A program made the position numbers and the translations under genes. From positions 1 to 33,936 of the forward strand of contig JAFYVF010000116.1 in assembly GCA_017549265.1 (NCBI GenBank): a DNA stretch of 33,936 nt, written 5' to 3'. The stretch comes from Clostridia bacterium (GTDB lineage Bacteria > Bacillota > Clostridia > UMGS1840). Positions 6,777-9,124 of this stretch are shown piece by piece; position 1 is the first letter of the stretch; every line of letters starts with the position of its first letter. The notes under the pieces are model-generated. The model saw only the letters and a program-made list of their open reading frames with translations. It searched no databases and was not told where the DNA came from.

Positions 6777-6805
6777 TTGATTTTTTTTTCACAATGTGTT
6801 ATAAT
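6777..6805 (+). promoter_or_regulatory. Sigma-A-type promoter upstream of the HisB-like gene
   Basis: A TTGATT -35 element (6777-6782) is followed after exactly 17 bases by a perfect TATAAT -10 (6800-6805). The spacer is T-rich. Transcription would start near 6812, about 40 bases before the HisB-like ATG at 6852, leaving room for the AGGAAAGGAA ribosome site. It likely drives the HisB-like, HAD, fumarase beta and radC genes as one unit. Confidence 0.75.
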
Positions 6806-6851: not shown

Positions 6852-7478
6852 ATGAAAACTACTGTTACCGTAACACGTACCACCACTGAATCCAATATGA
6901 AGGTAGCTTGTGATTTTCGTGCACTTGCAGCAGATTATCGCAAGAAAATCAACACGCCCTATCCGTTTTTAAATCATATGATTGAACATATTGCATATCG
7001 GGCAGGAATTACCGTGGAAACTAACGTAGAGTTAAATACGTTTGTGTTATCTCATGTAGTTTTTGAGGACCTTGGTATTGCATTCGGGAAAGCGCTGAAA
7101 ACTTATGTTTTGGAAAATGCTTCCCAAGGTGTAACAGGCTTTGGCGACGGTGTTGGAATCATTGATGAAGCCTACGCAGAAGCTGCCATCAGCTTTGAAG
7201 AACGCGCATATTTTAACTTTACCAATGATGCAGGTAAACTTGCGGAAACGACCGAGGGAGTTGCAACCGAGGATTTATTTGTCTTTTTGGAAGGTGTGGC
7301 ACAAGGTGCTCAGGCAACCTTACATATCAATTTAAGAAAAGGCACCAACATGCATCACATTTTTGAAGCCATTTACCGTGCGTTTGGTATTTGCTTAAAA
7401 CGTGCATTATGCTGTGATGAAACCAGAATCGGATTAACCTCCGGCGTTGCAGGAAAAATTGATTTTGTTATTGAGTAA
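6852..7478 (+). CDS. Divergent HisB-like (imidazoleglycerol-phosphate dehydratase fold) protein
   Basis: This 208-residue protein aligns along its length with imidazoleglycerol-phosphate dehydratase, the dimanganese histidine-biosynthesis enzyme. Retained features are Glu13 (TTES), His42 in FLNHMIEH, Glu72-Asp73, Asp105-Glu106 (IDEA), Glu140, His158 (TLHIN) and the second HHxxE motif (His168, His169, Glu172). The first HHxxED motif reads H68-V69-V-F-E72-D, so its second His is Val. The usual THG block is YRAG (His to Arg50), and the C-terminal phosphate-binding SSKG is missing. True HisB keeps both HHxxE motifs, so ordinary dehydratase activity is doubtful. No other histidine gene is in the window. 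A sigma-A promoter precedes it and a HAD hydrolase follows 41 bases later. It could be a repurposed enzyme or a degenerate HisB. Confidence 0.7.
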   Translation: MKTTVTVTRTTTESNMKVACDFRALAADYRKKINTPYPFLNHMIEHIAYRAGITVETNVELNTFVLSHVVFEDLGIAFGKALKTYVLENASQGVTGFGDGVGIIDEAYAEAAISFEERAYFNFTNDAGKLAETTEGVATEDLFVFLEGVAQGAQATLHINLRKGTNMHHIFEAIYRAFGICLKRALCCDETRIGLTSGVAGKIDFVIE

Positions 7479-7519: not shown

Positions 7520-8569
7520 ATGGACGACGGGCATTCCGGGAAGTTTAGTACCGTATTGTTCGATTTAGACGGTGTGATCACCGGCGAACAAGCCTATTGG
7601 AAGGCGGCAGCACTGACTGTGTATGAGTATTTTTATGAGGATTTGGAGTTAAACAGTGAATTCTGTTACGAAGAAGTGGATTCTATTATGAATACTGTTT
7701 TTTCTTATCAGGAAACCGTGGTTACTTTAAAATCTTTAGGTTTAAATTCCAATTGGGATTTGGCATATGCAGTAATTTTATCCACCGATATTTTAAAAAG
7801 TGAGGGCATTGAAGATGAAGAAATCTTTGCGATGGTGCCCGAATTTTTGGCAGACAAAAATATTTTGGCTCCGGAACTATTAGAAGTGTTGGCACAGGAA
7901 TACGAAGAAATATTCAACTACCCTGAAGGATACGCCAGAAAGGGTGGCGAGTTCTATGATGAAATCGTGAAGAAATTTCAGCATTGGTATCTGGGAGACG
8001 AAGGCTATGTAGCCCAGTATCATGAGCCGGTACCGATGGAAAAGGGGAATATCGGATTGGTGGATTCCGAAGAACCTCTTTTGGGATTATCGGAAACACA
8101 AGCCTTATTAAAAGAGCTTCATGATGCAGGCTATATGCTTGGTATCGGTAGTGGACGTCCCCGCCGGGAATTGGAACTTCCTTTGCAGAATTGGGGAGTG
8201 TTTCATTATTTTGACAAAGAAAGAATCGTTAGCTATGATGATGTTCTTTTCTGGCAAAAAGAATACCAAAAACAGCAAAACGTGGATGAAAAATTGGTGA
8301 AACCGCATCCTTTTCAGTTTGTGAAAGGTGCCTGCGGTAGCGATTTTTCTTTGGAAAAACTAAAAAATAAAGAAGACTTCAGCCATGTTTTAGTGGTGGG
8401 AGATGCACTTTGCGATTTGATTGCTGCCCACGATGCGGGATGTAAATTCTGTGCCGTATTAACAGGGGTAGACGGCAAAGATGCGCGTACATTTTTTGAA
8501 AATATGGGAGCAGATTATATTTTGGAAGATGCAACTGAGCTTCCCAAAATTCTGTTGCCGAAAGAATAA
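7520..8569 (+). CDS. HAD-superfamily hydrolase, probable phosphatase
   Basis: This 349-residue protein has all four HAD motifs: FDLDGVIT with nucleophile Asp15 and acid/base Asp17; the motif II Ser in GIGSGRP (near 208-214); a motif III Lys in KPHPF (near 261); and VVGDALCD (near 291-298). The ~180-residue segment between motifs I and II holds a large acidic, mostly helical cap, bigger than in beta-phosphoglucomutase-like members (usually ~220 residues in all). The substrate cannot be read from the sequence. AGGAGA at 7505-7510 sets the ATG at 7520. It directly follows the HisB-like gene. In E. coli HisB a HAD histidinol-phosphatase is fused to the dehydratase, but this protein belongs to a different, larger HAD group, so the resemblance may be coincidental. 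Confidence 0.8.
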   Translation: MDDGHSGKFSTVLFDLDGVITGEQAYWKAAALTVYEYFYEDLELNSEFCYEEVDSIMNTVFSYQETVVTLKSLGLNSNWDLAYAVILSTDILKSEGIEDEEIFAMVPEFLADKNILAPELLEVLAQEYEEIFNYPEGYARKGGEFYDEIVKKFQHWYLGDEGYVAQYHEPVPMEKGNIGLVDSEEPLLGLSETQALLKELHDAGYMLGIGSGRPRRELELPLQNWGVFHYFDKERIVSYDDVLFWQKEYQKQQNVDEKLVKPHPFQFVKGACGSDFSLEKLKNKEDFSHVLVVGDALCDLIAAHDAGCKFCAVLTGVDGKDARTFFENMGADYILEDATELPKILLPKE

Positions 8570-8596
8570 ATGTTTGAGAAAGGGAAGAAGGCCATT

Positions 8597-9124
8597 ATGG
8601 AAATCAAATTACACACTTCTGAAGTAGAAAAAATTAAAAACTTAAAAGCAGGGGATATGGTTCTGCTCTCCGGCGTTATTTATACAGCCCGAGATGCTGC
8701 GCATAAGAGAATGACCGATGCTTTGGCAGCAGGCGAAGAATTGCCCTTGGATATTAAAGATGCAATTATTTATTATGCAGGTCCCACCCCTCCGAAGCCG
8801 GGTGAAGTGATTGGTTCTTGCGGACCCACCACCAGCTACCGTATGGATAAATATGCGCCCACTTTGTTGGATGAAGGTCAGCTTGGTATGATCGGAAAAG
8901 GTCTCAGAAACCAGGATGTTATTGATGCAATCAAACGTAACCAGGGAATTTATTTTGCTGCAATCGGCGGTGCGGGTGCGTTAATTTCCAAATCTATCAA
9001 AAAAGCAGAAGTAATTGCTTATGAAGATTTAGGTGCAGAAGCATTGCGCAGATTAGAAGTGGAAGATTTGTCATTAACCGTTGTAATTGATAAAGACGGC
9101 AACAATCTGTATGACAGAGCTTAA
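8597..9124 (+). CDS. Class I fumarase / tartrate dehydratase beta-type subunit, without adjacent alpha
   Basis: This 175-residue protein matches the C-terminal (beta) domain of iron-sulfur class I fumarases and L(+)-tartrate dehydratases. It shows KAGDMVLLSGVIYTARDAAH, IIYYAGPTPPKPGEVIGSCG and the substrate-binding GPTTSYRMD, then GMIGKG and YFAAIGGAGALIS. The beta subunit normally pairs with an alpha subunit carrying the [4Fe-4S] cysteines, usually encoded immediately upstream. Here a HAD hydrolase is upstream and no alpha gene occurs in the window. The frame extends to an ATG at 8570, but GGGAAGAAGG at 8582-8591 and the family N-terminus (MEIKLHTS) favour 8597. It could act with a distant alpha subunit or in another hydro-lyase. 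Confidence 0.85.
   Translation: MEIKLHTSEVEKIKNLKAGDMVLLSGVIYTARDAAHKRMTDALAAGEELPLDIKDAIIYYAGPTPPKPGEVIGSCGPTTSYRMDKYAPTLLDEGQLGMIGKGLRNQDVIDAIKRNQGIYFAAIGGAGALISKSIKKAEVIAYEDLGAEALRRLEVEDLSLTVVIDKDGNNLYDRA

Follow-up and report, generated by a model that had tools for sequence, protein, structure and literature searches.

Histidine synthesis is a textbook pathway and is regarded as much alike from bacteria to plants. Its imidazoleglycerol phosphate (IGP) dehydratase, IGPD, carries two Mn ions, for which the ligand table of PMC4509728 (Table 2 of that paper) lists H47, H74, H169 and E173 at one site and H73, E77, H145 and H170 at the other. Passages of the same paper assign the phosphate site to R99, K177, H55/Q51 and the C-loop residues S199 and K201; in A. 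thaliana, R99 and the C-loop Lys contact the phosphate of IGP. For histidinol dehydrogenase (HisD), passages of PMC11382572 give a Gln, an Asp and two His as zinc ligands, and describe HpsN as a case where the HisD fold is able to oxidise a CH2OH beside an OH. By title and start of abstract (a scope that most subscription papers fall outside) we found no description of a divergent HisB, an altered late pathway or an altered HisD site.

The variant dehydratase and its active site

We analyzed a window of 33,936 nucleotides (the whole stretch of contig JAFYVF010000116.1 from a Clostridia bacterium), which encodes a variant dehydratase named HisB' here (Table 1). Its PF00475 match covers residues 35-182 at 111.6 bits, well over the curated cut-off of 27 bits, whereas the 13 NCBIfam HisB equivalogs that match all stay below theirs (best NF002114, 121.1 against 189). 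The AF2 model, made as a monomer although the real metal site sits between subunits, has a mean pLDDT of 94.4; its superposition with the structure of A. thaliana IGPD2 (4mu0) covers 185 residues at an rmsd of 1.9 and a Z of 26.5. PDB ranks 1-21 are all IGPD entries (Z 23.8-26.5), the next row being at 8.2. A preliminary description of this DNA had recognized the HisB fold from end to end, and both match and superposition bear this out. The promoter that it called strong is present as a site, but with 12 -35/-10-like sites counted around hisB' against 7.8 (sd 2.5) expected, this is weak evidence for its strength. No T-box or other RNA sought in the window was found at gathering score.

Table 1. 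Coordinates and evidence for the features of the window and of related loci (positions without a locus name refer to the window).
Feature	Position	Strand	Evidence or remark
Promoter-like site TTGATT-17-TATAAT, TG before -10, upstream of hisB'	6777..6805	+	10/12 matches
hisB' (variant PF00475 dehydratase, 208 aa)	6852..7478	+	ORF, PF00475 match, structure model
HAD phosphatase (349 aa, FDLDG motif), co-inherited with hisB'	7520..8569	+	HAD profile, genome co-occurrence
Fe-S hydro-lyase beta subunit, FumB/TtdB type	8570..9124	+	conserved neighbour, 53/64 loci; relevance uncertain
HisD' of own genome (moved copy)	L170:4279-5571		Q259E/D360N/H367A
HisD' annotated histidinol dehydrogenase	L151:6682-7974		Q259E/D360N/H367A
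Short HisJ-like PHP protein	L190:8404-9048	-	
Short HisJ-like PHP protein	L192:6204-6875		
Short HisJ-like PHP protein	L193:8576-9253	-	

The correspondence with residues of A. thaliana IGPD2 comes from a profile alignment, read together with the ligands that PMC4509728 tabulates and discusses. HisB' resembles IGPD in its E21 and D108 (here E13 and D105), in R121 (R118) and in six of the eight residues that bind Mn: H47, H73, E77, H169/H170 and E173 correspond to H42, H68, E72, H168/H169 and E172, the second HHxxE thus being kept. It differs in the other two ligands (H74 is V69 and H145 is V144) and in the phosphate site, where Q51, H55, R99 and K177 map to H46, R50, G96 and R176 and the C-loop SSKG reads TSGVAG. 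The motif changes given in the preliminary description (H68-V69, R50, the missing SSKG, the retained H168-H169..E172) all stand. It had taken the THG His behind Arg50 for part of the dimetal site; however, that His (A. thaliana H55) is, like SSKG, a phosphate and not a metal ligand in PMC4509728. Its account of the remaining metal ligands overlooked the second loss, at V144, and the change of R99 to G96 is absent from it. Nor does the sequence give any indication of the one-metal enzyme it proposed, as three of the four protein ligands are left at each Mn site.

The same pattern is found throughout the relatives. One scan of genome contigs yielded 69 of them (identity 46-91%, a complete Petroclostridium chromosome among them), and in 70/70 sequences position 69 is V, L or I, position 50 is R and position 46 is H; the same picture emerged when a wider set of 99 variant rows (100 minus the antisense ORF L128, from partly overlapping genomes) was aligned with 30 canonical HisBs of clostridia. 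After thinning, 61 variants were compared with 32 canonical HisBs of clostridia and 7 other ones. Here position 69 is V39/L21/I1 in the variants against H in 32/32 clostridial and 7/7 other HisBs, and position 144 is T51/V7/A2/S1 against E in 32/32 clostridial canonical HisBs (E4/H3 in the others). The canonical eight-ligand set is therefore absent from the clade, the H74 and H145/E positions being changed in 61/61. The canonical phosphate site is not retained either: R99 is lost in 61/61 (to G, S or A), the K177 and H55 positions are both Arg in 61/61 and SxKG of canonical HisB has become SGVAG, whereas R121 is kept. Among the 7 other HisBs, Arg replaces H55 in one case, and K177 is missing in one. 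Invariant in 61/61 are E21, D108, E173 and the six metal ligands, together with E116 and E135, which are new in HisB'. Position 46 is H58/Q3 in the variants; H46 is thus unlikely as a substitute metal ligand, Q being also what A. thaliana has (Q51). R50, R118, R176 and H46 are candidate anion-binding residues of HisB'.

In a HisB tree built from bacterial sequences alone, the 61 variants form one side of a branch with 100/100 support and long stems, so that the H-V variants are indeed one clade. Canonical clostridial HisBs (L091-L120) carry Glu at the A. thaliana H145 ligand position in 30/30 cases, as do those of the thinned set.

One HisB per genome and its setting

The genome of origin (77.8% complete) has one PF00475 protein, and in 32/32 carrier genomes searched (a subset of the genomes of the 69 relatives) hisB' encodes the only one; a second, canonical hisB was found in none of them. 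We divided 291 genomes of the class with a variant profile (49 at E<=1e-85, 175 between about 3e-34 and 3e-20), which resulted in 49 genomes with HisB', 175 with canonical HisB, 67 with neither and 0 with both. All 224 genomes with PF00475 have exactly one match each. Independent occurrence would give about 29 genomes with both forms, an estimate that ignores kinship: the genomes are related and the counts non-independent. Families f2, f12, f19, f30 and f51 each contain both forms, a pattern suggestive of transfer or displacement.

The carriers have further his genes. HisG (as a fragment in the genome of origin), HisA/F and HisD are found in 33/33 variant genomes, HisD with one match each, and HisI in 32/33, the exception being the own, incomplete genome. 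A phylum sample of 398 added five variants outside the class. In three of these (L160, L162, L163) hisB' is the last gene of a hisZ-G-H-A-F-IE-D-B operon, a setting shared with IGPD; genes of L163 were called by NCBIfam cut-offs (all but HisB'), and L163 in turn served as the blastp reference for L160 and L162. The remaining two are hisD'-hisB'-HAD clusters. The placement outside a histidine operon given in the preliminary description hence applies to the window and its genus, where hisB'-HAD-fumB follows ligA and hisD lies elsewhere (G000:C109), but not to these three relatives. Its proposal of a HisB paralogue does not hold: none of the 224 genomes has a canonical hisB next to the variant, and the same residues occur at the end of otherwise complete his operons, an outcome that it had itself named as speaking against this reading. 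Because it is the sole PF00475 protein, is never found together with the canonical form and ends three his operons, HisB' is the HisB of this lineage. By its context a histidine-pathway dehydratase role of some kind is well supported, and we consider it very probable.

In the 69 variant loci HisG, HisH, HisA, HisF and HisIE are absent (0/69 each) and HisZ occurs once (1/69). A HisD ORF is seen in 66 of 69 relative loci and a HAD ORF in 62, the three without HisD being congeners of the window (L002-L004). With a stricter count of positions, which includes the window and is low where the ORF caller missed hisB' (L021, L040, L042, L044, L050), hisD is directly upstream in 63/69, HAD lies within 400 bases downstream in 58/69 and the FumB-type gene follows in 53/64. 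The latter is disfavoured as a pathway enzyme, since an alpha subunit is present in 30/33 genomes; the beta subunit gene is conserved behind the HAD gene though an alpha subunit is encoded elsewhere.

A HisC-like ORF is found in 24 of 30 canonical hisB loci of 3.4 kb (the best PF00475 scorers, not a random choice) against 0/69 variant loci, which says little alone because the other his genes are nearly absent there too. No true hisC was seen in 32 fetched stretches around early his clusters, 30 of them with a his gene and about five with all of hisZ-G-H-A-F-IE (L181, L182, L185, L188); hisC is absent as well from the three complete operons. The only HisC-like ORFs in the 32 stretches are two general class I aminotransferases, each preceded by a 163-aa ORF near the his cluster of two distant carriers (L192:13674-14849, L204:2226-3392). 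These are candidates for an imidazolepyruvate aminotransferase. HisJ exceeds its cut-off in 30 of 31 chosen canonical genomes but in 11 of 33 variant ones (among them the genome of origin), and in three variant clusters a short HisJ-like PHP protein of 215-226 aa, below the hisJ cut-off, adjoins hisZ (Table 1). Open frames with HisZ or HisG matches that run to about 550-580 aa (L183, L195, L196, L197), a 496-aa HisA frame (L197) and a 517-aa HisA-HisF frame (L160:2559-4112) suggest fusions of his genes.

HisD', the HAD phosphatase and the late pathway

The HisD of the carriers, HisD', is altered as well, at its zinc and substrate site. In the numbering of the aligned E. coli HisD (L179) it has Q259E, D360N and H367A in 72/72 rows against 0/8 canonical ones, whereas H262, E326, H327, E414 and H419 are retained. 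In L163 the protein scores 479.1 bits with the hisD model TIGR00069, whose cut-off is 243.8. All HisD' rows fall together in a single clade (SH-aLRT 100 in one tree, 96/92 in another) and are split from canonical HisD at 100/100 together with six plasmid paralogues from rhizobia and Klebsiella (L173, L174, L175, L176, L177, L178), in a tree that warns of long branches. These paralogues share E in 6/6, N in 6/6 and A in 5/6. Their neighbours in the four annotated plasmid stretches are ABC transporters, alcohol dehydrogenases and genes for hydroxy or sugar acids, so the stretches look like polyol/hydroxy-acid catabolic clusters and the hisD name is probably wrong there. This suggests substrates with a hydroxyl where the HisD substrate has its amino group; as hutC is named as a neighbour in three of the four, an imidazole compound is possible.

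The HAD phosphatase is linked to HisB' across genomes: at E<=1e-30 it is present in 48/49 variant genomes against 4/175 canonical and 1/67 HisB-less ones. Its best PDB row is 1qyi (Q8NW41, a hypothetical protein) at Z 34 with 29% identity over 335 residues, while the next rows among the HAD-IA phosphatases (phosphoglycolate phosphatase-like, beta-phosphoglucomutase-like and others) remain under Z 20. Histidinol-ppas (TIGR01656) gives weak matches in 11 of 39 members, and the likeness to a glycerol-3-phosphatase is weak too (E 8.4e-5). The idea of an obligate partner is weakened by the three complete operons, where no HAD gene is adjacent, and by variant genome G285, which has none.

Joint remodelling of HisB and HisD, a linked phosphatase and the lack of a linked hisC fit a late pathway with reordered steps, dephosphorylation coming first and dehydration following the oxidation. 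We slightly favour this order, at a probability that we would put just short of even. We infer all its reactions; the clade, its exclusivity, the operon context, the joint residue changes, the HAD linkage and the lack of hisC from the his clusters examined are observed. The pathway would be canonical as far as IGP, from which the HAD phosphatase would strip the phosphate to give imidazoleglycerol. HisD' would then oxidise imidazoleglycerol at its CH2OH in a four-electron step that gives imidazoleglycerate, HisB' would dehydrate this to imidazolepyruvate with the two-metal imidazolate/diazafulvene mechanism of IGPD, and a general aminotransferase would yield histidine. HisB' would face a carboxylate where IGPD sees a phosphate, and HisD' a 2-hydroxyl where HisD sees an amine. 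A carboxylate in place of the phosphate would explain why R99 and the C-loop Lys are missing and why positions 50 and 176 are Arg, and it could occupy the metal position left empty by H74. The different substrate of HisB' that the preliminary description had considered may apply, and gains weight from the joint HisD change and the co-inherited phosphatase. That HisB', HisD' and HAD are dedicated enzymes of a previously unrecognised step order, with HisC dispensable and with imidazoleglycerol, imidazoleglycerate and imidazolepyruvate replacing imidazoleacetol phosphate, histidinol phosphate and histidinol, is a more tentative reading.

The odds are close, though, between this order and ordinary chemistry, to which we attach a similarly guarded probability. 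HisB' would then still turn IGP into the usual products, and its active site would merely have drifted: six protein ligands would serve for eight while water, or a residue such as E116 or E135, fills in and the phosphate rests on R50, R176, R118 and H46. HisD' would be a divergent histidinol dehydrogenase and HAD a histidinol phosphatase, comparable to the HAD domain that E. coli HisB has. Such a drift agrees with the invariant acidic residues and metal ligands of the clade, the his operons that contain hisB', the occurrence of H or Q at position 46, where A. thaliana has Q, the retained HisD' residues and the passed hisD cut-off, as well as with the depletion of HisJ where HAD is present. It explains less easily why two late-pathway enzymes with different metals are altered together at metal and substrate residues, why the his clusters examined have no hisC, why HisD' groups with non-biosynthetic paralogues and why the phosphate contacts described for A. 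thaliana in PMC4509728 are gone. Against the reordered route, on the other hand, hisC might simply be unlinked, HisJ-family proteins still exceed the cut-off in a third of the variant genomes, HAD linkage has the exceptions given above, R118, R50 and R176 could still hold a phosphate, and Arg at the H55 position and a lack of K177 are each seen in one of the 7 other HisBs; moreover, the counts come from related genomes and the HisD tree carries its long-branch warning.

It might also be argued that HisB' and HisD' serve another pathway, histidine being imported or made by unknown enzymes. The altered residues and the grouping of HisD' with paralogues from catabolic-looking clusters would fit this, but HisG, HisI and HisA/F are nearly always present beside the single HisB and HisD, complete operons join hisB' to his genes and the two HisB forms exclude each other, which makes this reading improbable. 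For a decaying or mis-assembled gene nothing speaks but the altered motifs. The pattern shared by all relatives, carriers that include records not labelled MAG (L011, L027 and L063, one a complete chromosome) and purifying selection against the congener locus L002 (dN 0.064, dS 1.13, dN/dS about 0.06) rule it out, in line with the intact frame that was initially reported.

Implications for histidine biosynthesis

Annotation is directly affected. The RefSeq member of Monoglobus pectinilyticus is a 'hypothetical protein' between hisD and the HAD gene, a label that can cause a false prediction of histidine auxotrophy, and the HisD' of this species is named histidinol dehydrogenase, which may be wrong. 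No HisB-type dehydratase of the histidine pathway other than HisB' was found in this group of gut and anaerobic bacteria. In a clade that comprises 49 of the 291 sampled class genomes, both a dehydratase and a dehydrogenase have been rebuilt at their metal and substrate sites, mostly with a phosphatase of their own. Reordered steps would amount to a second route to an amino acid, whereas an unchanged order would show that the manganese site of IGPD tolerates the loss of two ligands.
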